14,405 bases of DNA from Candidatus Aerophobota bacterium (lineage in GTDB: Bacteria > Aerophobota > Aerophobia > Aerophobales > B3-G15). How positions within the stretch are numbered: position 1 is the first letter of the stretch; every line of letters begins with the position of its first letter. Made by a program: the position numbers and the translations under genes. Under the pieces are notes generated by a model. The model was not told the DNA's origin. It saw nothing but the letters and a program-made list of their open reading frames with translations, and made no database searches. The DNA lies in assembly GCA_030607715.1 (NCBI GenBank), contig JAUWJM010000028.1:1-14405 (forward strand). Reading direction: 5' to 3'. Positions 3,690-14,405 of the stretch are shown here, piece after piece.

Positions 3690-4466
3690 GTGAAAATTGC
3701 GGTCACCGGAAAGGGAGGTGTGGGTAAAACCACTATTGCTGCAGGTATTATTAAATGTTTTGCAGTAAATGAAAGGTCAGTTTTTGCCATTGATGCTGAC
3801 CCTGACACTAACCTTGCTTTGACTCTTTCCTTCCCAAATCCATCCAATATTACTCCTCTGATTAAGATGAAAAAATTAATTGAAGAAAGAACTGGAGCTA
3901 AACCGGGCAGTATTTCTCCTTATTTTAAGTTAAATCCCAGGGTTGATGATATTCCAGATAAGTACTTTGTAGAGTACGATGGAATAAAACTTGCTATTAT
4001 GGGAACAGTCAGGGGAGGAGGGCTGGGGTGTACCTGTCCGGAAAATGCCTTTTTAAAAGCACTGCTCTCTCATCTTCTGGTGGAAAGAGAAGAGGTGGTA
4101 ATTCTGGATATGGAGGCAGGTATAGAGCATCTGGGAAGAGGAACAGCGAAAGCAGTAGATGAGTTGATTGTAATTGTTGAGCCAGGTAAAAAGAGCATTG
4201 AGACAGCCTTCCGTATTAAAAAACTTGCACCTCAGATAGGAATACTAAAATTGTCCACAGTTGGTAATAAAATAAGAGGAGAAAAAGATAAAAATTATCT
4301 TTTATCCAATATGCCTGATTTTCATTTTCTCGGATTTATAAGCTTTGATGAGGCTATTATTGAAGCAGACATTAGCGGTTTTTCTCTCTGGGAGAGAGGA
4401 GAACGATTCAGGAAGGAAATAAAAGCTATAGTTAAAAAATTAACTCAGGAGAGGAATTATGGATAA
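3690..4466 (+). CDS. cooC: CooC-type nickel-insertion ATPase for CO dehydrogenase
   Basis: CooC is a MinD/SIMIBI-class ATPase that helps insert nickel into the C-cluster of CO dehydrogenase. The 258-residue protein has the deviant Walker A GKGGVGKTT (7-15, signature Lys8), the DADPDTN switch region (35-41), the metal-binding C-x-C pair of the family (Cys114, Cys116 in GCTCP) and Walker B-like DMEAGIEH (140-147). All key residues are intact. The start is GTG at 3690, chosen because the Walker A motif begins a few residues later as in relatives and because AAAGGA lies at 3674-3679. It is the first gene after a consensus promoter and overlaps cooS by 8 bases (4459-4466), which suggests coupled translation with its client enzyme. 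Confidence 0.95.
   Translation: MKIAVTGKGGVGKTTIAAGIIKCFAVNERSVFAIDADPDTNLALTLSFPNPSNITPLIKMKKLIEERTGAKPGSISPYFKLNPRVDDIPDKYFVEYDGIKLAIMGTVRGGGLGCTCPENAFLKALLSHLLVEREEVVILDMEAGIEHLGRGTAKAVDELIVIVEPGKKSIETAFRIKKLAPQIGILKLSTVGNKIRGEKDKNYLLSNMPDFHFLGFISFDEAIIEADISGFSLWERGERFRKEIKAIVKKLTQERNYG
4447..4454 (+). promoter_or_regulatory. Ribosome binding site of cooS inside cooC
   Basis: AGGAGAGG lies within the last codons of cooC, 4 bases before the cooS ATG. It supports the start at 4459 and the 8-base overlap of the two reading frames. Confidence 0.75.
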
Positions 4467-6366
4467 GGTAGAAAAAAGAACTGTTGATAGAGCAAGTCAG
4501 CAGATGCTAAAAAGAGCAGAGAAGAAAAATATTTTAACAGCTTGGGATCGTCTTGAAATTATGCAACCCCAGTGTGGATTTGGACAATTGGGTATATGCT
4601 GTCGGAATTGCAGTATGGGACCTTGTAGAATTGATCCTTTTGCTGAAGAAGAGCAAACCGGGGTTTGTGGTGCATCAGCAGATACTATTGTTGCCAGAAA
4701 CTTTATTAGAATGATTGCCGGAGGAGCAGCAGCTCATTCTGATCATGGAAGAGATATTACTCATGCTTTGATGTTAGCCGCTCAGGGAAAAGCAGATGCC
4801 TATGGGATAAAGGATGAGATCAAACTAAAAGCTCTGGCTTGTGAATACGGAGTTAAAATTAATGGAAGAGAAAAAAATGAGATTGCTGAGGAGCTGACGG
4901 AAAAAATTTTTGCTGATTTTGGTCGCCAGCACGGTGAAATAAAGACGCCACTCAGGGCACCTGAGAAAAGAGTTAAACTTTGGAAAGAGCTGGGAGTTAT
5001 ACCAAGAGGAATAGATCGAGAAATTGTAGAAACTATGCATAGAACTCATATCGGAGTGGACAATGATTATAAAAATATCTTAATGCATGGTTTCAGGACT
5101 GCTCTATCTGATGGATGGGGTGGGTCTATGTTTGCTACTGACCTTTCTGATGTCTTATTTCATACTCCTGATCCTATATTAGCAAGATCAAATTTAGGCA
5201 CTCTTTCTTTAGATGAGGTTAATGTTGTAGTTCATGGTCATGAACCTACTTTATCTGATGTAGTAGTAGATGCAGTAAGGGATCCTGAAATTGTTGAGCT
5301 TGCTAAGAAAAAGGGGGCCAAAGGCATAAATCTGGTGGGAATGTGTTGCACAGCAAATGAGATTTTAATGCGTCATGGAATTCCAGTAGCGGGAAATTTC
5401 TTGCAACAGGAACTTGCTATTCTTACTGGGGCAGTTGATTTAATGATGGTGGATGTTCAGTGTATAATGCCTGCTTTAGCCAGTGTAGCTACTGCTTTTC
5501 ATACTAAACTTGTAACAACTTCTCCTAAAAATAAAGCACCTGGTGTTACTCATATTGAATTTAAGGAAGAGAAGGCTTATGAAATAGCTAAACGTATAAT
5601 TAAGATGGCTATTGAAAATTTTCCTAATAGAAATGGTAATGATATTCAAATTCCTGATGAAAACGAGGATTTAGTGGCTGGGTTTAGTGCAGAGAATGTT
5701 TATAATTTCCTTGGGGGGACCTATCGTGCTACTTACAGACCCTTGAATGATGCTATAATTCAGGGAAGAGTCAGAGGTTTAGCAGGAGTGGTAGGATGTA
5801 ACAATCCTAAAATTAAACATAACTTTGGTCATATAGAGATGAGCAAAGAGTTAATTAAAAATGATGTTCTGGTAGCTGTAACTGGGTGCACGGCCATTGC
5901 TGATGCTGAAGCAGGATTGTTGAAACCAGAGGCTGCTTTTGAATATGCAGGAAAAGGTCTTCAGGAGATATGTGAGACAGTAGGAATTCCTCCAATTCTT
6001 CATGTTGGCTCCTGTGTTGATAACAGTAGGATTTTAATGACTCTTACCAATGTAGTTCTTGAAGGGGGATTGGGAGAGGATATAAGCGATCTTCCGGCAG
6101 CAGGAGCGGCTCCTGAGTGGATGAGTGAAAAGGCTGTATCCATAGCATCTTATTTTGTTGCCTCCGGCGTTTTCACTGTGCTTGGTGTTCCTTTTCCAAT
6201 TCTTGGCAGTAAAAACGTAACTGATTTCCTGTGCGGTGATATAGAAAATATCTTAGGGGCAAAGTTTGCCTTTGAGGCTGATCCTATAAAAGCAGCCCAT
6301 ATTATGATAGAACATATAGATAAGAAAAGAAAAGCTCTTAAATTAAAACCATTGATGTATCAGTAA
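4459..6366 (+). CDS. cooS: Ni-Fe carbon monoxide dehydrogenase catalytic subunit
   Basis: This is the monofunctional bacterial CooS/AcsA type (635 residues), which interconverts CO and CO2 and, with AcsB, supplies the carbonyl of acetyl-CoA. Cys39 and Cys47 fit the intersubunit D-cluster; Cys48, Cys51, Cys56 and Cys70 fit the B-cluster. These positions equal those I recall for Carboxydothermus CODH-II. C-cluster ligands are visible as His261 (VHGHEP), Cys297 (MCCTANE), Cys335 (VQCIMP), Cys447 (GCNNPK), Cys477 (TGCTA) and Cys519 (GSCVDNS). His93 (AAAHSDHG) and probably Lys558 (SEKAV) match the acid-base residues. Nothing is missing, so the enzyme should be active. It lies between its maturase and a CooF-like ferredoxin, and acsB follows two genes later. 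Confidence 0.97.
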   Translation: MDKVEKRTVDRASQQMLKRAEKKNILTAWDRLEIMQPQCGFGQLGICCRNCSMGPCRIDPFAEEEQTGVCGASADTIVARNFIRMIAGGAAAHSDHGRDITHALMLAAQGKADAYGIKDEIKLKALACEYGVKINGREKNEIAEELTEKIFADFGRQHGEIKTPLRAPEKRVKLWKELGVIPRGIDREIVETMHRTHIGVDNDYKNILMHGFRTALSDGWGGSMFATDLSDVLFHTPDPILARSNLGTLSLDEVNVVVHGHEPTLSDVVVDAVRDPEIVELAKKKGAKGINLVGMCCTANEILMRHGIPVAGNFLQQELAILTGAVDLMMVDVQCIMPALASVATAFHTKLVTTSPKNKAPGVTHIEFKEEKAYEIAKRIIKMAIENFPNRNGNDIQIPDENEDLVAGFSAENVYNFLGGTYRATYRPLNDAIIQGRVRGLAGVVGCNNPKIKHNFGHIEMSKELIKNDVLVAVTGCTAIADAEAGLLKPEAAFEYAGKGLQEICETVGIPPILHVGSCVDNSRILMTLTNVVLEGGLGEDISDLPAAGAAPEWMSEKAVSIASYFVASGVFTVLGVPFPILGSKNVTDFLCGDIENILGAKFAFEADPIKAAHIMIEHIDKKRKALKLKPLMYQ

Positions 6367-6377
6367 AGGGGGATGTG

Positions 6378-6890
6378 ATGAAGAGAGTATTTGTCGATTT
6401 AGATAAATGTTTAGGATGTCACAGTTGTATGATAGCCTGCGCTGTGGAACATTCCTTATCCAAAGATTTATTTAAGGCAATTCGAGAAGTCCCTTTTCCT
6501 AAACCTCGAATTGAAGTTAAAACTGCTGGCGAGGAGGATAGTTTCCCTTTGCAGTGTCGTCATTGTGAGGAACCTTATTGTGTAGATGCCTGCATTGCTG
6601 GAGCCATAAGAAAAGATCCGAAAACAGGTTTAGTTCTTGCTAATGAAGAAAAGTGTATAGGATGCTGGATGTGTGTTATGGCATGTCCTTTTGGCATAAT
6701 AAGATCTTCTCTTCTTCCGAACAAGGAGGAAAAAGTAGCTGTGAGGTGCGATTTATGTCAGGATAGAGAAATTCCAGCTTGCGTTGAGGCCTGTCCTACT
6801 GGTGCCTTATTCTTTGGAGAAGTACAAGATTTTAAAGAGGCTGTTAGTAAGAGCAAGGAGGGAAGAAATGCATTACTTAATAGTGGGTAA
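6378..6890 (+). CDS. cooF: CooF-like 4x[4Fe-4S] ferredoxin
   Basis: The protein (170 residues from ATG 6378) contains sixteen cysteines in four groups typical of the CooF/HycB electron-transfer family: C11-x2-C14-x2-C17-x3-C21, C60-x2-C63-x4-C68-x3-C72, C93-x2-C96-x2-C99-x3-C103 and C124-x2-C127-x7-C135-x3-C139. Four [4Fe-4S] clusters are expected. It probably carries electrons between CO dehydrogenase and the flavoprotein encoded next, in the cytoplasm. ATG 6378 is preferred over the adjacent GTG 6375 because the G-rich site (6368-6372) is then spaced 5 bases away; the difference is one residue. The 3' end overlaps the flavoprotein start by 23 bases, a sign of coupling. Other HycB-like subunits (formate or hydrogen enzymes) look similar; the position after cooS favours CooF. 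Confidence 0.9.
   Translation: MKRVFVDLDKCLGCHSCMIACAVEHSLSKDLFKAIREVPFPKPRIEVKTAGEEDSFPLQCRHCEEPYCVDACIAGAIRKDPKTGLVLANEEKCIGCWMCVMACPFGIIRSSLLPNKEEKVAVRCDLCQDREIPACVEACPTGALFFGEVQDFKEAVSKSKEGRNALLNSG
6855..6862 (+). promoter_or_regulatory. Ribosome binding site fixing the flavoprotein start
   Basis: AAGGAGGG lies 5 bases before ATG 6868, inside the end of the ferredoxin gene. It decides for 6868 over the longer open frame from 6784, whose extra 28 residues (rich in Arg, Leu and Lys) do not resemble a flavoprotein N-terminus. Confidence 0.85.
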
Positions 6891-7758
6891 CTGCGCAGCA
6901 GGGATAAATGCTATTGAGGGAATAAGAAGGCTGGATAAAGATGGTAAAATTACAGTAGTATCAGATGAAAATTTTCCTGCTTACTGTAGATCTCTTATTA
7001 CAGATTATGTTGCAGGAACTCGTCAAAAGAAGGATATTCTATATAGAGAAAAGGATTTTTATGATAAAAACAGAGTAGAGGTAATTCTGGGAGAAAAAGT
7101 AAATAGAATCGATATTTCAAAAAATAAGGTGATTTTGCAAAAAGGGGACTCTTTACCTTACGATAAACTTTTGATTGCAACTGGAGCAAGTCCTAAGCCT
7201 TTAGGGATTAAAGGTGGGGATAAATATGGAGTTTTTGGATTTCGAACATTATCTGATGCTGATGAAATTGTTAAATTAGGTGATAAAACTAAAGAAGCGG
7301 TAATATTTGGCGGAGGGCTGATTGGATTAAAAGCTACTTATGGATTAAAAAAAAGAGGTGTTAATGTTCAGGTAATAGTTAAATCTCCCAGGGTATTATC
7401 GCAGGTTGTAGATATTGAAGCAGCTCAAATAATAGGTAAGTGGCTACAGGAAAATGGAATATCTATCCGAACTGGAATTGCTCCTGAGGAGATTTTGGGT
7501 GAGGGTGAGGTGGAAGAAGTAAAACTTGACAATGGAGAGAAAATTTCTGCTAAGCTTGTGATAGTGGGAAAGGGGGTTATGTGCAACACATCTGTAGTTA
7601 AGGATTCCCTGGTAAAAACTCATTGGGGCATACTCACCGATGATTTTCTCCGGACAAACATTGAAGGAATCTTTGCTGCCGGAGATGTTGCCGAAACCAA
7701 AGACATAGTAACCGGAACCAGGGTGGTAAATGCCTTGTGGACAGCTGCTTGTGAATAG
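6868..7758 (+). CDS. FAD/NAD(P)-dependent oxidoreductase, N-terminal part up to an in-frame TAG
   Basis: This reading frame encodes 296 residues of a pyridine-nucleotide-disulfide-oxidoreductase-like flavoprotein (NADH oxidase/rubredoxin reductase type). Features in order are the FAD dinucleotide fold GNCAAG (7-12), the NPAYCRS-like segment FPAYCRS, the central LLIATGASP, the NAD(P)-binding GGGLIG (148-153), and the second FAD motif with FAAGDVAE (269-276). The frame stops at TAG (7756-7758) right after NALWTAACE, where the family continues with a glutamine and GRIAG. The bases after the stop continue the same frame for 133 more family-like codons, so the intact gene would have 430 residues. 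CODH-CooF-flavoprotein sets are known, and are thought to pass CO electrons to NAD(P)+. Without the C-terminal domain the truncated protein would lack its usual dimerization surface and may be inactive, unless TAG is read through. Confidence 0.85.
   Translation: MHYLIVGNCAAGINAIEGIRRLDKDGKITVVSDENFPAYCRSLITDYVAGTRQKKDILYREKDFYDKNRVEVILGEKVNRIDISKNKVILQKGDSLPYDKLLIATGASPKPLGIKGGDKYGVFGFRTLSDADEIVKLGDKTKEAVIFGGGLIGLKATYGLKKRGVNVQVIVKSPRVLSQVVDIEAAQIIGKWLQENGISIRTGIAPEEILGEGEVEEVKLDNGEKISAKLVIVGKGVMCNTSVVKDSLVKTHWGILTDDFLRTNIEGIFAAGDVAETKDIVTGTRVVNALWTAACE
7756..7758 (+). other. In-frame amber codon interrupting the flavoprotein
   Basis: TAG stands as codon 297 of a frame that is otherwise open from 6868 to 8157. 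The preceding residues TAACE and following GRIAGMNM are contiguous family sequence, with one residue (usually Gln, CAG) replaced. A single C-to-T change explains it; frame is kept, so there is no indel. Confidence 0.9.
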
Positions 7759-7773
7759 GGAAGAATTGCTGGA

Positions 7774-8160
7774 ATGAATATGGTAGAGAGGAATAAAAAA
7801 TATCCCGGTTCTATAGGGGCAAACTCGGCTGACTTTTTTGGATTAGCATTTATCTCAGTTGGTTATGTAAGAGCAAGAGAAGAAGGTTATGAAGAGTTGG
7901 TAAGGTCCAATCCAAAGAAGTATAAATATAAAAAGGTTGTACTTAAAGGGAATAGATTGGTTGGCTTTACCACAATAAATAATATTGAAGATGCTGGAGT
8001 GTATACAGCTTTGATAAGAAAAAAGGCGGATATATCTACAGTAAAAGATATTTTACTGGAAGATTATCTTGACTATCCAAAGGTAAGAACTCTCTTAGAG
8101 GGGGAAGAAGGATTACGAGAAAGCGTTTCTATGCAGGGAGAAATTATAAGGATGGCATAA
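7774..8160 (+). CDS. C-terminal part of the same FAD oxidoreductase, downstream of TAG
   Basis: This 128-residue frame (133 codons if counted from the TAG at 7756-7758) is the C-terminal dimerization domain of the flavoprotein encoded by 6868-7758, in the same frame. The GRIAGMNM start, the SADFFGLAFISVGYV stretch (19-33) and the helix-strand pattern that follows match the end of NADH oxidase-type flavoproteins. It has no FAD or NAD motif of its own. Only a weak purine stretch (GGAAGA, 7759-7764) precedes ATG 7774, so independent translation would be inefficient. Reinitiation could still yield a separate fragment. It is best read as one broken or read-through gene rather than a gene in its own right. 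It ends with TAA 17 bases before acsB. Confidence 0.75.
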   Translation: MNMVERNKKYPGSIGANSADFFGLAFISVGYVRAREEGYEELVRSNPKKYKYKKVVLKGNRLVGFTTINNIEDAGVYTALIRKKADISTVKDILLEDYLDYPKVRTLLEGEEGLRESVSMQGEIIRMA

Positions 8161-8164
8161 TTTT

Positions 8165-8171
8165 AAGGAGG
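8165..8171 (+). promoter_or_regulatory. Strong ribosome binding site of acsB
   Basis: AAGGAGG, near-perfect for the 16S anti-Shine-Dalgarno sequence, lies 6 bases before ATG 8178. It makes acsB translation independent of the interrupted gene upstream. Confidence 0.85.
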
Positions 8172-8177
8172 TTATCA

Positions 8178-10406
8178 ATGTCCAGAATAATAGCTTCAGC
8201 AGCAATACGTGGGGCACATAAGTATGTAAAAGAAGCTGAAGAGAAGTTAAATGAGTTGATTGAGGAAAAAGGTGAAAAACAAGAGGTAGGTTTCCCTAAC
8301 ACTGCTTATTATTTACCTGTAATTTTATCTTTGTTGGGGATAGAGGTGAAAACTTTGGCTGATGTTAAAGAAGCTTTAGAGCAGGCAAGATCTTTTCTTC
8401 CTCCATTGGTAAAGGAGAGAGTTTGGCTTCCCTATCTGGGAAATGCGCTGGATGCGGGAATTGCCACTTTGATTGCTCTGGAGATTATCGAAGCTTTCAA
8501 GTATCTCACCGGGGATGAGCCTAAAGGAATCTGGCTTGGGTTTACTGATGATTCTATCTTGCGAATGCAGGGAATAAAGTTAGTTGATGGGAGAATGCCT
8601 GGTTTTGCTGCCTGTGCAGGAGCTCATCCTACTAATGAACAAGCAGTTGAGCTTGCCAGAGCTCTTCAGGAAAAAAGTATCTTAGTTTTTATGGCTTCCT
8701 CAACTGGTGGAAAGAGCATGGCTGAACAACTTGCCGAAGAAGGAATTGAGATGAACTGGGATACTTTTCTTGTTCCCTATGGTAAGGATACCTCTTCTGC
8801 TATTCATGCCTTGAACTTTGCTGCCAGAGCTGCCCTTACTTTTGGAGGGATAAAACCAGGAGATCCAGAAAAGGCCAGAGAAATAGGCAGAAAATTACTC
8901 CTTTATAACAAAGAAAGAGTTCATGCTTTTGTTCTTGCTCTGGGAGCTGATCCTGAGGTAAATGGTAGCGGACAACTCCTTACTGATGAAAAATATGCCG
9001 CTGCTGCCGGAGCTATTAATTTTGGTTTTCCTATTTTATCTGATGTTGATATACCCCAGATTCTTCCTACAGGAATCTGTACTTATGAGCATGTTGTTTC
9101 TAATATTTCTCTTGATAAGATTGTTAGCAAAGCTATTGAGGTAAGAGGTCTTGAGATAAAGGTAACTGAGGTTCCCATTCCTGTTCCTTATGGTGCTGGA
9201 TTTGAGGGAGAAAGAGTTAGAAAAGAGCAAATGCAGGTTGAATTTGGTGGAAAGCGTAGTGTGGCTTTTGAATTTTTAAGAGGAAAACCCATGGATGAGG
9301 TAGAAGATGGTAAAGTTGAGCTCATTGGTCCTGATGTTGATACAGTTGAAGAAGGCAGCGCCATGAATTTAGGAATTCTGGTAGAGGTTGCCGGAAGAAA
9401 TTTCAGTGAAGATTTTGAGAGCGTTCTTGAGCGCAGAATCCATGAATTTATATCCTGTGCCAATGGTATATTTCATATGGGTCAGAGGGCTATTGCCTGG
9501 ATAAGGATAAGCAAAGAGGCTTATCAAAAAGGGTTCAGGTTAAAACACTTTGGAGAATTACTGGTGGCTAAGATCAAAGACGAGTATTCAAAAATTGTAG
9601 ATAAAGTTCAGGTTACACTTATTACTGATGAGGTAAAAATGAAAAAGCCTTTAGAAGAGGCAAAGAAAATTTATTATCAAAGAGATGAGCGATTGGGTGG
9701 GATGACTGACGAAAATGTTGATACTTACTATAGTTGTATTTTATGTCAGTCTTATGCACCGGATCATGTATGCATTGTAACTCCTGAAAGATTAGGTCTT
9801 TGTGGTGCTTATACCTGGCTTGATTGCAAGGCGTCACATCAGTTAAATCCTCATGGGCCTAATGAGCCTGTGAAAAAGGGTAAAACTTTAGATCCTGTAA
9901 AAGGGCAATGGGAGGGAGTTAATGAATATCTTAAGGTGAAATCTCATGGAAACTTGGAGATATTTAATGCCTACTCTATGTTAGAGGATCCAATGACTTC
10001 GTGTGGCTGTTTTGAGTGCGTTGTGGCAGTTCTTCCAGAGACTAATGGGGTTATGATCGTTAACCGGGAGTTTACTGAAATGACCCCTGTAGGGATGACT
10101 TTTAGCACTATGGCTGGGCAGGTAGGGGGAGGAATTCAGACACCAGGATTTATAGGAATTGGTAAGGTTTACATTACCAGCAAAAAGTTTATCTCTGCTG
10201 ATGGGGGAACAAAGAGGCTGGTTTGGATGCCTGCTGAACTTAAAGAGGAAATAAAGGAGCGATTGGAAAAAAGACTAAAGGAAATAGGAGAGCCTGAACT
10301 CATGGAAAAAATAGCTACAGAAAAGGATGCTATTACCTCAGAGGAGCTTTTAGAGTTTTTGCAAAAAAAAAGTCATCCGGCTCTGTCTATGGAACCAATG
10401 ATGTAA
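8178..10406 (+). CDS. acsB: Acetyl-CoA synthase (CODH/ACS beta subunit)
   Basis: AcsB joins CO from CO dehydrogenase, a methyl group from the corrinoid iron-sulfur protein and coenzyme A into acetyl-CoA. The 742-residue length is that of bacterial AcsB (about 730); archaeal CdhC lacks the roughly 300-residue N-terminal domain that binds CO dehydrogenase. A-cluster ligands are present: Cys520, Cys523, Cys532 and Cys542 (C-x2-C-x8-C-x9-C) for the cubane, and Cys609-Gly610-Cys611 for the dinickel site, with Cys609 bridging. All lie exactly 14 positions after the numbering I recall for Moorella AcsB, which indicates a collinear core with a slightly longer N-terminal part. The enzyme should be functional. 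It is separated from cooS by the ferredoxin and flavoprotein genes, an uncommon order. A strong AAGGAGG site precedes the start. Confidence 0.97.
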   Translation: MSRIIASAAIRGAHKYVKEAEEKLNELIEEKGEKQEVGFPNTAYYLPVILSLLGIEVKTLADVKEALEQARSFLPPLVKERVWLPYLGNALDAGIATLIALEIIEAFKYLTGDEPKGIWLGFTDDSILRMQGIKLVDGRMPGFAACAGAHPTNEQAVELARALQEKSILVFMASSTGGKSMAEQLAEEGIEMNWDTFLVPYGKDTSSAIHALNFAARAALTFGGIKPGDPEKAREIGRKLLLYNKERVHAFVLALGADPEVNGSGQLLTDEKYAAAAGAINFGFPILSDVDIPQILPTGICTYEHVVSNISLDKIVSKAIEVRGLEIKVTEVPIPVPYGAGFEGERVRKEQMQVEFGGKRSVAFEFLRGKPMDEVEDGKVELIGPDVDTVEEGSAMNLGILVEVAGRNFSEDFESVLERRIHEFISCANGIFHMGQRAIAWIRISKEAYQKGFRLKHFGELLVAKIKDEYSKIVDKVQVTLITDEVKMKKPLEEAKKIYYQRDERLGGMTDENVDTYYSCILCQSYAPDHVCIVTPERLGLCGAYTWLDCKASHQLNPHGPNEPVKKGKTLDPVKGQWEGVNEYLKVKSHGNLEIFNAYSMLEDPMTSCGCFECVVAVLPETNGVMIVNREFTEMTPVGMTFSTMAGQVGGGIQTPGFIGIGKVYITSKKFISADGGTKRLVWMPAELKEEIKERLEKRLKEIGEPELMEKIATEKDAITSEELLEFLQKKSHPALSMEPMM

Positions 10407-10505: not shown

Positions 10506-11858
10506 ATGGCCTTAACTGGACTGCAAATTTACAAGCTTTTACCTAGAACTAATTGTGGGGATTGTAATTTTCCTACCTGCATGGCTTTTGCTATGCAAGT
10601 GGCAGCAAAAAGGGTTGCTATAGATAAATGTCCACATATAAGTGAGGAAGCAAAAGCTCAGCTTGCTGAGGCTTCAGCACCACCAATGAAGCTTGTTTCC
10701 ATTGGTAGTGACCAAAACAAATTAGAAATAGGACAAGAAACAGTGCTTTTTCGACATAAGGAAAAATTCTATCACCCAACAGGAGTGGCTATTTTAGTTG
10801 AAGATACTTTAACCGATAGTGAGCTGGATAAAGAAATAACTTCCATAAATCAGCTTAAGTTCATTAGAGTAGGTGAGGAAATAGAGATAGATCTTGTAGC
10901 TTTGCAACACAAATCAGTTAGCGCTCAAGAGTTTGCTCGTCTGGCAGAAAAGATAACAGAGAAAACTACTTATCCCCTTATTCTCATCTGCCAGGACCCC
11001 TCTGTTATAGAATCTGTTCTAAAGGTTATTGGTGATAAAAGACCCTTAATTTATTCTGCTAACAAGGAAAATTTTGAAAAAGTAGCTTCCCTTGCCAAAC
11101 AGTATAACTGTCCTCTTGCTGTTTATGCTGAGAGCCTGGAAGAGCTTGCCGACCTTATCCAGAATATAAAGAAAATTGGAGTGGACGATCTTGTTCTTGA
11201 TCCAGGGACAAGAAAAACCAGAACTGCACTTGATTATTTAACGAAATTAAGGCGATTGGCCGTAGAAAAAGTTTTCCGTCCCTTAGGATATCCTACCATA
11301 ATGTTTACCAGCGAGGAAGACCCTTTTCAAGAGATTATTCAGGCATCTACCTATGTATGCAAGTATGCAAATATTGTGGTGATAAAGGCCAAAAATGCCT
11401 GGCAACTTCTACCCTTACTCACTGTGAGGCAAAATATCTATACTGATCCTAAAGTACCTAACGCTGTAGACTCTAAGCTCTACGAAATAGGAGCAGTAAA
11501 TTCTGATTCACCAGTAATTGTTACCACTAATTTTTCTCTTACCTACTTTACTGTTGAATCAGAAGTAGAAAACAGCAAAATCCCCACCTGTATTTCTGTA
11601 GTAGAAACTGAAGGCATGGGTGTTTTAAATGCTTATGCTGGAGATAAATGGTCTGCAGAAAAGGTAGCAAAAACTTTAGAAAAACAAAAAGTCAGAGAAA
11701 AGGTAAATCATAATACTATTATTATCCCTGGTCTTGTTGCTGTTTTTCGGGCCGAACTTATAGATGAATTTGGCTGGAATGTTTTAGTTGGTCCAGAGGA
11801 GGCAGCCAGGATACCCAGTTTCCTTAAGAATGAATGGAAACCAGATGGTAAGAAATGA
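10506..11858 (+). CDS. acsC: Corrinoid iron-sulfur protein large subunit
   Basis: AcsC (gamma subunit, CdhE in archaea) with the small subunit AcsD accepts the methyl group from methyltetrahydrofolate on a cobamide and delivers it to acetyl-CoA synthase. The 450-residue length is typical. The N-terminal [4Fe-4S] motif is complete: Cys17, Cys20, Cys25 and Cys42 (NCGDCNFPTC followed by DKCP). The middle, about residues 90-330, is the TIM-barrel part (for example LVLDPGTRKT), and the C-terminal part (about 330-450, with TEGMGVLNAYAGDKW and PGLVAVFRAELIDEFGW) is the cobamide-binding domain. The stop TGA overlaps the next start (ATGA, 11855-11858), so it is translationally coupled to its own reductive activator. 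The partner AcsD is not encoded in this window. Confidence 0.96.
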   Translation: MALTGLQIYKLLPRTNCGDCNFPTCMAFAMQVAAKRVAIDKCPHISEEAKAQLAEASAPPMKLVSIGSDQNKLEIGQETVLFRHKEKFYHPTGVAILVEDTLTDSELDKEITSINQLKFIRVGEEIEIDLVALQHKSVSAQEFARLAEKITEKTTYPLILICQDPSVIESVLKVIGDKRPLIYSANKENFEKVASLAKQYNCPLAVYAESLEELADLIQNIKKIGVDDLVLDPGTRKTRTALDYLTKLRRLAVEKVFRPLGYPTIMFTSEEDPFQEIIQASTYVCKYANIVVIKAKNAWQLLPLLTVRQNIYTDPKVPNAVDSKLYEIGAVNSDSPVIVTTNFSLTYFTVESEVENSKIPTCISVVETEGMGVLNAYAGDKWSAEKVAKTLEKQKVREKVNHNTIIIPGLVAVFRAELIDEFGWNVLVGPEEAARIPSFLKNEWKPDGKK

Positions 11859-13771
11859 AAAAAGATAAGGTTAAAGTAACTTTTTTGCCTCAAGGTGAAA
11901 CAATACAGGTAGAAAAAGGTGTAACTCTTCTTGAGGCATCAATAAGAGCTGGTGTTTATGTTAACTCTATTTGTGGAGGGGACGGAATCTGTGGTAGTTG
12001 CAGACTTATAGTTAAAGAAGGTGATGTTACCACTCGTCCTACTACTCTTCTTAAAAGAGAAGATATTAAAAAAGGTTATGTTCTTGCCTGCCAGACTGAA
12101 GTTATAGGTAATATAGTAGTTGAGATTCCTCCTGAGGCACGTGCAAAAGGGAAAATCCTTATAGATAAGGATGCTCAAAGGTTCAGAGCTCTTTATGCTC
12201 CCATGAAAGAGCAGGTGTTTTTCAAATATGAGCCCCCTATTCAAAAAATTTACCTTGAACTTCCTCCTCCCTCCTTACAGGACAATATAGCCGATCATGT
12301 TCGTCTTTATCGTGGCATAAGGCGTCAAAGAAAAACCCCTATTATGCAGACCGGGCTCAAGGTAATAAGGACTCTTCCTTACATTTTAAGAGAAAGTGAT
12401 TGGAAGATAACTACCACTTTAGGGATAAGAGGAGGAACAGTTGAGATTATCCAGGTGGAGAGGGGAAATACCACGGATAGAAATTTTGCCCTTGCCATAG
12501 ATGTTGGAACATCAACAGTAGTAGTTCATCTGGTAAATTTAAATACCTTTGAGACTATGGATGCTGAGGCTACTTACAACTCTCAGATGGTTTATGGAGA
12601 AGAGGTTACCCGAAGAATAATTTATGCTGAACTTAAGGGAGAAGAAAAACTAAGAGAAGCAATTGTTGATGATATAAATAATCTTATTACTACTTTAATC
12701 TCCAGAAATAACATAAAACTTAATGATGTGATGGCTATTGTTTGTGCAGGGAATACAGCAATGCTCCATTTTCTCCTTGAGTTAAATCCTTCCTATCTTC
12801 GAAAAGAACCTTATATTCCTGTATGCACTTATCCTTCGCCTATAAGAGCAGCTGAGGTGGGGATAAAGATTAATCCCAGAGGACTTCTCTACTCTCTTCC
12901 CAGTATAGCAAGCTGGATGGGAGCTGACATTACTGCAGGAATACTTGCTACCGGTTTATACCAAACAGATGAGCTCACTATGCTTATAGATATTGGGACA
13001 AATGGCGAAATTGTTATTGGAGATAAAAATTGGATGGTTTGTTGTTCTGCCTCAGCAGGTCCTGCTTTTGAAGGGAGTGGAGTTAAAAGTGGAATGAGAG
13101 CAGCTGAGGGAGCTATAGAGAGAGTTAAAATTTCTGAAGAGGGAAAAATTCAATATATAACTATTGGAGGAGGAAAACCAAGAGGTATATGTGGCTCTGG
13201 ATTGATAGATACTATAGCGGAGCTGTTTAAAGCAGGATTTGTAGACCGATCTGGTAGATTGAATCCTGATATAAATAGTAAAGTAAGAGATGTAAATGGG
13301 GAATTGGAATTTCTCCTGGTGCCATCTTCTCAAACTGCAACTAAAAATGATATAGTTATAGCTCAAGCTGATATAGAAAACCTTCTTAGAGCTAAGGCAG
13401 CTATCTTTGCTGGAATAAATGCACTCACTAAAATGTTGAGTATTAAGTTTTCCGATATTAAAAGAATTTACTTAGCCGGGGGATTTGGTAATTATCTTGA
13501 TAAGGAAAATGCTATAACTCTTGGTCTTATCCCTGATGTTCAAAGGGAGAAAGTACAGTTTGTAGGTAATACCTCTATCTTAGGAGCAAAAATGGCTCTT
13601 CTATCAAAGGATGCTCTTGATACTGCTTATAAGATTAGCAAAAATATAACTTACTATGACCTTATAACTTATCCGTATTATATGGATGAGTTTATGTCAG
13701 CAAAATTTTTACCTCATACTGATGTAAGTGAATTTCCCACTATAATGGAAAAAATAAAAAAGACAGTTTAA
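11855..13771 (+). CDS. acsV: RACo-type ATP-dependent reductive activator of the corrinoid protein
   Basis: The 638-residue protein joins an N-terminal [2Fe-2S] ferredoxin domain to an ASKHA-class ATPase domain (DUF4445 type). Cysteines 40, 46, 49 and 79 (C-x5-C-x2-C and a distant fourth) bind the cluster. The ATPase part shows DVGTST (216-221), DIGTNGE (379-385) and AGGFGN (541-546), the phosphate- and adenosine-binding signatures of the fold. Such proteins use ATP to return the inactive Co(II) corrinoid protein to Co(I); RACo of Carboxydothermus and the Moorella acsV product are the relevant examples. Methyltransferase activators (RamA-like) are alternatives, but those carry [4Fe-4S] clusters. 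The ATGA overlap with acsC makes the assignment to CFeSP strong. Confidence 0.93.
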   Translation: MKKDKVKVTFLPQGETIQVEKGVTLLEASIRAGVYVNSICGGDGICGSCRLIVKEGDVTTRPTTLLKREDIKKGYVLACQTEVIGNIVVEIPPEARAKGKILIDKDAQRFRALYAPMKEQVFFKYEPPIQKIYLELPPPSLQDNIADHVRLYRGIRRQRKTPIMQTGLKVIRTLPYILRESDWKITTTLGIRGGTVEIIQVERGNTTDRNFALAIDVGTSTVVVHLVNLNTFETMDAEATYNSQMVYGEEVTRRIIYAELKGEEKLREAIVDDINNLITTLISRNNIKLNDVMAIVCAGNTAMLHFLLELNPSYLRKEPYIPVCTYPSPIRAAEVGIKINPRGLLYSLPSIASWMGADITAGILATGLYQTDELTMLIDIGTNGEIVIGDKNWMVCCSASAGPAFEGSGVKSGMRAAEGAIERVKISEEGKIQYITIGGGKPRGICGSGLIDTIAELFKAGFVDRSGRLNPDINSKVRDVNGELEFLLVPSSQTATKNDIVIAQADIENLLRAKAAIFAGINALTKMLSIKFSDIKRIYLAGGFGNYLDKENAITLGLIPDVQREKVQFVGNTSILGAKMALLSKDALDTAYKISKNITYYDLITYPYYMDEFMSAKFLPHTDVSEFPTIMEKIKKTV

Positions 13772-13774
13772 AAA

Positions 13775-14405
13775 ATGGGTAAAAAGATTGTTTGCACAGG
13801 AAGAGGCGGTACCGGTAAAACAACTTTTGTAGCTTTGCTGGCTAAGTGCTTATCGCATCCCTTACTTATTGATGCTGATTCTGATCAAAATCTTGCCGAT
13901 ATGCTGGGAGTAGACTTACAAAAAGAGGAAATAAAGACAATATCTGAGGTGCTTTTTGATATTCAAAAAAACAAAACTTATAAAGAGCTAAGCTCTATGC
14001 CTTTACCTGATAAAATAGAATATTTATTTAACACTTCCTGCTTATATGAGTCAGAAAAGTTTGATATAGCCTGTATAGGAGTAAAGTGGACCAAAGGTTG
14101 TTACTGTATGCCCAACAATATTTTAAGGAACATTCTTCCTAAAATGGCTAATAGCTATGAATATACAATTATAGATTCACCAGGTGGCCTGGAACATCTT
14201 AATAGAAGAATAATATGGGAAATAGATGACATATTTGTTATATTAGACCCCTCTAAAAAGGCTTTAAATAATGTAGAAAGGATGAGAAAAATTGCAGGTG
14301 AAATTGGAATCCATTTTGATAATGTTTACCTTATAGGAAATCATAGATTTAAGAAAGCAACAGAGGACTACGTTAAAAGCATAAATGGAAATTATTTAGG
14401 AAAGA
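13775..14405 (+). CDS. Second CooC/AcsF-like ATPase (cut by window end)
   Basis: The first 210 residues are present; the gene runs off the window. It is a MinD/SIMIBI-class ATPase resembling CooC: Walker A GRGGTGKTT (9-17), DADSDQN, the metal-site C-x-C pair Cys109 and Cys111 (GCYCMP), and DSPGGLEH (134-141) at the Walker B-like position. It differs from the first cooC in two places: the signature Lys of the deviant Walker A is Arg10, and the usual D-x-E-A-G is D-S-P-G-G. AcsF, a CooC homologue encoded in acs clusters, is thought to assist maturation of acetyl-CoA synthase or its complex with CO dehydrogenase. The position after acsB-acsC-activator fits that role. ATG 13775 follows the preceding stop by 3 bases, with no clear ribosome binding site, so coupling is likely. 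Confidence 0.88.
   Translation, partial: MGKKIVCTGRGGTGKTTFVALLAKCLSHPLLIDADSDQNLADMLGVDLQKEEIKTISEVLFDIQKNKTYKELSSMPLPDKIEYLFNTSCLYESEKFDIACIGVKWTKGCYCMPNNILRNILPKMANSYEYTIIDSPGGLEHLNRRIIWEIDDIFVILDPSKKALNNVERMRKIAGEIGIHFDNVYLIGNHRFKKATEDYVKSINGNYLGK

Follow-up and report, generated by a model that had tools for sequence, protein, structure and literature searches.

We describe an in-frame TAG codon (positions 7756-7758) within a flavoprotein gene (6868..8160, + strand) of a CO dehydrogenase/acetyl-CoA synthase (CODH/ACS) cluster, in a stretch of 14,405 nucleotides of DNA from a deep-branching Candidatus Aerophobota bacterium, hereafter called the window. The codon lies at a position occupied by glutamine in most relatives. 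It is best read as an isolated single-base change, and a special genetic code is not pointed to. We give about even weight, for and against, to the proposal that this ordinary FNOR-type oxidoreductase gene carries a real and very recent nonsense allele at codon 297, with TAG acting as an ordinary stop.

The interrupted gene and its neighbourhood

Translation of the frame gives 296 residues, the TAG, a further 133 residues and a terminal TAA (8158-8160), and a search of this translation for a second internal stop or a frame shift found none, in agreement with the original prediction of a 430-codon frame open except at the TAG. The letters around codon 297 are ...GCT TGT GAA TAG GGA AGA ATT GCT GGA.... 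With the TAG read as Gln, the product has 14 relatives of 427-431 residues, matched over 100% of the query with 75-86% identity; among the matches listed from the protein database, which is clustered at 90%, the nearest full-length representative shares 86% identity. The product has the FAD/NAD(P) pyridine nucleotide oxidoreductase fold with a Rubredoxin_C-type C-terminus (Pyr_redox_2, residues 2-298; Rubredoxin_C, residues 323-386) and belongs to the NirB/NADH:rubredoxin-reductase family. Because of these full-cover relatives and domains the frame, judged by its sequence, is a real gene, and the family match over the 133 codons past the stop is not due to chance. The N-terminal 296 codons (6868..7755, + strand) comprise the FAD and NAD(P) domains, and the protein database predicts a separate downstream ORF of 126 codons (7780..8160, + strand) bearing the Rubredoxin_C domain. 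The start of this ORF, ATG 7780, was chosen by length, and a second in-frame ATG lies at 7774. No repeats were found within positions 7600-8200 of the window.

The gene order in the window is PhoU, a 93-residue ORF, a sodium:solute symporter, dihydropteroate synthase, a CooC-type ATPase and CODH, followed by a CooF/HydN-like ferredoxin, the flavoprotein, AcsB, AcsC, an AcsV/RACo-like protein and a second CooC-type ATPase. The features located below, from 3690 onwards, lie on the + strand. The catalytic subunit of the anaerobic Ni-CO dehydrogenase (cooS/acsA, 4459..6366) scored over the cut-off of TIGR01702. The 4Fe-4S ferredoxin-type subunit (6375..6890) is CooF/HydN-like by domain and family matches, the CooF label coming from context; its gene shares 23 bases at the 3' end with the start of the flavoprotein gene, an overlap also present in the related locus L001. 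Domain and family matches identified acsB (acetyl-CoA synthase, 8178..10406), which is preceded by AAGGAGG, and a family match identified acsC (10506..11858), encoding the large subunit of the corrinoid iron-sulfur protein (decarbonylase/synthase gamma in NCBIfam). The AcsV/RACo-like corrinoid reductive activator (11855..13771) reached 640.9 bits against a cut-off of 800. The genes at 3690..4466, with a CbiA domain, and at 13775..14404, an ORF cut by the window end, both have counterparts in L001 and presumably encode CooC-type ATPases, a name given from the context. At the end of the symporter gene two stops stand in tandem, TAG TAA (2660-2665).

The closest genome loci come from metagenome-assembled genomes (MAGs) named Candidatus Aerophobetes, L001 matching at 77% over the full length and L003 at 82% over residues 128-430. 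The gene order of L001 is that of the window from the first to the second CooC-type ATPase. L002 has ferredoxin, flavoprotein and CODH in another order, and L003 has the flavoprotein followed by acsB. The acsB gene of MAG B47_G16 (L062:7143-10973, - strand, the same locus as L001) is interrupted by an intein bearing LAGLIDADG domains (Intein_splicing, 72.8 bits; LAGLIDADG_3, 64 bits), located in the ACS C-terminal domain at ...SCILC / CQSYAP.... This intein is absent from the acsB of the window, and the L003 AcsB aligns unbroken over all 742 residues.

Gene clusters of CODH, CooF and FNOR have been described (PMC6344411). The FNOR (COG1251-type) encoded there with Ni-CODH and CooF is the same kind of flavoprotein as ours, which likewise adjoins a CooF-like subunit and CODH/ACS genes; this likeness is one of family and neighbours. 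The window copy differs in its stop at codon 297, where a CODH-linked FNOR would have an uninterrupted reading frame. The best solved match by both sequence and fold is 8c0z_E (29% identity, TM 0.86), the flavoprotein subunit of the Aromatoleum tungsten aldehyde oxidoreductase, which is intact and serves another partner enzyme. The gene is of a known kind, and its one copy here is either broken or mis-called.

The residue expected at codon 297 and its place in the protein

The search for relatives gave 3212 matches, of which the best 120 were listed, one being the window's own protein. The column of codon 297 is present in 118 of the other 119, the exception being the partial sequence P0086, and among these best matches it holds glutamine in 113/118, histidine in 3/118 and glutamic acid in 2/118. 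All 14 close relatives have glutamine, encoded by CAG in L001 and L003 and by CAA in L002, so that the expectation of a glutamine codon at this site was well founded. A pyrrolysine protein would be expected to have relatives with a conserved TAG; here they have glutamine.

Comparison with sister loci, a check proposed with the original prediction, covered 18 strong matches (E ≤1e-60) distributed over 18 genomes from two phyla; 5 came from a set of 17 genomes and 13 from another of 35, and in none of them is the flavoprotein interrupted by a stop. In the 17-genome set 41 matches were listed, including weaker ones of which many do not span residue 297, and none of the 41 contains an internal stop. 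When the downstream ORF alone served as query, two proteins were retrieved, the window's own and a 122-residue C-terminal piece on a contig of 589 bases, an ambiguous case which may be a contig-edge piece. A TAG or split recurring at this site was therefore rejected, given its absence from the 18 strong genome matches and this single ambiguous piece.

In an AlphaFold2 model (56 sequences, mean pLDDT 92.6), residue 297 lies in the middle of helix 291-306 of the FAD domain, the last helix preceding the C-terminal domain. The ...QGRIAG segment, proposed earlier to join the C-terminal domain, is not a linker in this model and belongs to the helix itself. As the stop falls in mid-helix, the two halves are, according to the model, not natural units, and a chain ending at residue 296 is unlikely to fold normally.

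Constraint on both halves of the gene

The dN/dS ratios (Nei-Gojobori) between the window and L001 were 0.132 upstream and 0.043 downstream of the stop, values that are rough since dS was 1.1-2.0, with synonymous sites near saturation. Against L003 they were 0.147 for residues 128-296 and 0.111 downstream, and between L001 and L003 they were 0.081 upstream and 0.086 downstream. Of the columns with at least 90% conservation in 55 other sequences, the window is changed in 0/71 upstream and 0/22 downstream. For columns without any variation among the 14 close relatives, the counts are 5/123 and 2/56, respectively, within the range of these relatives. In trees of 23 sequences, the terminal branch of the window is of normal length (0.090 upstream, 0.072 downstream). 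From dN/dS, conserved columns and branch lengths we therefore infer that normal constraint acts on the gene to this day or ceased only very recently. The absence of decay in either half noted at the outset thus holds, as does its reading as the mark of a recent or tolerated change.

Weighing the readings of the TAG codon

If the base is taken as real, a single-base nonsense mutation would have arisen very recently in the sampled lineage or strain. Translation would end at the TAG, inside the last FAD-domain helix, and the 296-residue product, devoid of the helix end and of the C-terminal domain, would probably be inactive. Since acsB is served by a ribosome-binding site of its own, synthesis of CODH/ACS would continue, and it is reasonable to expect that the CO dehydrogenase would lose its predicted NAD(P)H link, as had been suggested for a terminating TAG. 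A consensus error would explain the absence of decay just as well. Fixation of a nonsense change in a core energy-metabolism cluster should, in our judgement, be uncommon, which makes a minority allele or an error a serious rival; we give a sizeable minority of our confidence to the gene being intact in the cells and the TAG stemming from an error in the consensus or assembly, or from a minority strain represented in the consensus. Internal stops often stem from the assembly of poor or low-coverage data (PMC11017572), and the pseudogenes and artefacts treated in that paper likewise show a single internal stop in an otherwise intact gene; nothing tested sets the flavoprotein gene apart from them. 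It also fits an isolated error that internal stops are absent from the window's other complete genes, of which those with L001 counterparts align nearly end to end. By our own arithmetic, however, the chance of such an error in a given 14-kb stretch is of the order of 1% at the minimum rate, more at very low coverage, and no further signs of error were seen in the contig. Both the mutation and the error envisaged in the original prediction hence survive; sequence comparison does not tell them apart, and the weights given here are judgements. As it stands, the case mainly shows that reads should be consulted before a lone stop codon is given a biological meaning.

The readings in which both halves are used appear much weaker. 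Two cooperating chains, the second restarting at ATG 7774 or 7780, would find possible restart ATGs near the stop that are, by eye, preceded by GGA motifs, but the break falls in the middle of a helix and not at a domain border in the model, no strong genome match is split there and the other short C-terminal match lies on the 589-base contig, so that we regard such an arrangement as highly improbable. Read-through of the TAG by a glutamine suppressor tRNA, pyrrolysine insertion or near-cognate decoding, giving a full-length protein, is unlikely; if it occurred, the set of naturally amber-recoded proteins would gain a partner of CO dehydrogenase. Weak hints in its favour are the undamaged state of the downstream half, on which constraint is the same as on the upstream one, a PylS over the cut-off in one (G017) of the 17 genomes of the phylum of G001, itself one of the two nearest genomes, and the finding that none of the 10 other complete window genes has TAG as its sole stop, since the one further TAG, of the symporter gene (2660-2662), is directly followed by TAA. 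TAG makes up about 20% of stops, however, so that none or one among ten genes is unremarkable. It is an ordinary stop in the relatives, ending 6/31, 7/28 and 10/48 mechanical ORFs in 10 chosen, de-duplicated loci each of G001, G003 and G017, respectively, and RF1 was over the cut-off in 16 of the 17 genomes of the phylum, which we take to be Aerophobota. This use of TAG as a stop, with one in-frame TAG in the window, is what we found in respect of a code in which TAG means Gln (code 15-like). The 105 bases that begin at the stop have no notable RNA fold (z +0.44; 132/200 shuffles at least as stable), and no Rfam match over the gathering score was found in the window.

The proposed check for a CUA-anticodon tRNA and for pylS was run in the two nearest genomes, G001 and G003, and neither was found. 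None of the 67 ARAGORN tRNAs called at Rfam tRNA places (42 in G001, 25 in G003) has the anticodon CTA, in a survey that an unusual tRNA missed by the Rfam model would escape. The ARAGORN input was 44 of 57 tRNA loci, the other 13 places lying inside those 44, and one of the 26 tRNA places of G003, at a contig end, was not called. A weak test, a strict-pattern home-made scan of 12 loci including the window and the G017 pylS contig, found no CUA tRNA either. No PylS over the cut-off is present in G001 or G003 (1/14 in control genomes), and PylD over the cut-off was found in 0/5 genomes, G017 included; both nearest genomes are MAGs of no stated completeness, which makes absences there soft. The flavoprotein shares an in-frame TAG and conserved sequence after the stop with the pyrrolysine-containing methylamine methyltransferases, but it is not a methyltransferase, its relatives have glutamine and no PylS or PylD was found in the two nearest genomes. 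Amber suppression, glutamine recoding and pyrrolysine insertion, raised as options by the original prediction, are thus not supported by these relatives. That the organism decodes some TAG as pyrrolysine, through a pyl system hinted at by the G017 PylS, or as glutamine, and that the flavoprotein, a protein other than the methylamine methyltransferases, has a residue of this kind within the helix of its FAD domain, we consider very improbable.

An MttB-like gene of G013 with an in-frame TAG was discarded, the TAG being by eye the gene's own terminal stop. G017 is distant from the nearest genomes, its RF1 being 65% identical to that of G001 and 61% to that of G003. Its two MtmB homologues, L168 (G017:C39) and L169 (G017:C115), both lack an in-frame stop; in L169 a Val aligns with residue X of PDB 1l2q, taken as pyrrolysine, and in L168 a Met by eye. 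The G017 PylS C-terminal-type protein (L056:16841-17674, G017:C38) scored 351.6 bits, and its best database match (P0121) is 99% identical. ARAGORN called no tRNA on this contig, which may be a binning contamination. The ORF after pylS has by eye the look of a corrinoid protein, and the region upstream (L056:16080-16300) has that of a tandem glycine riboswitch.
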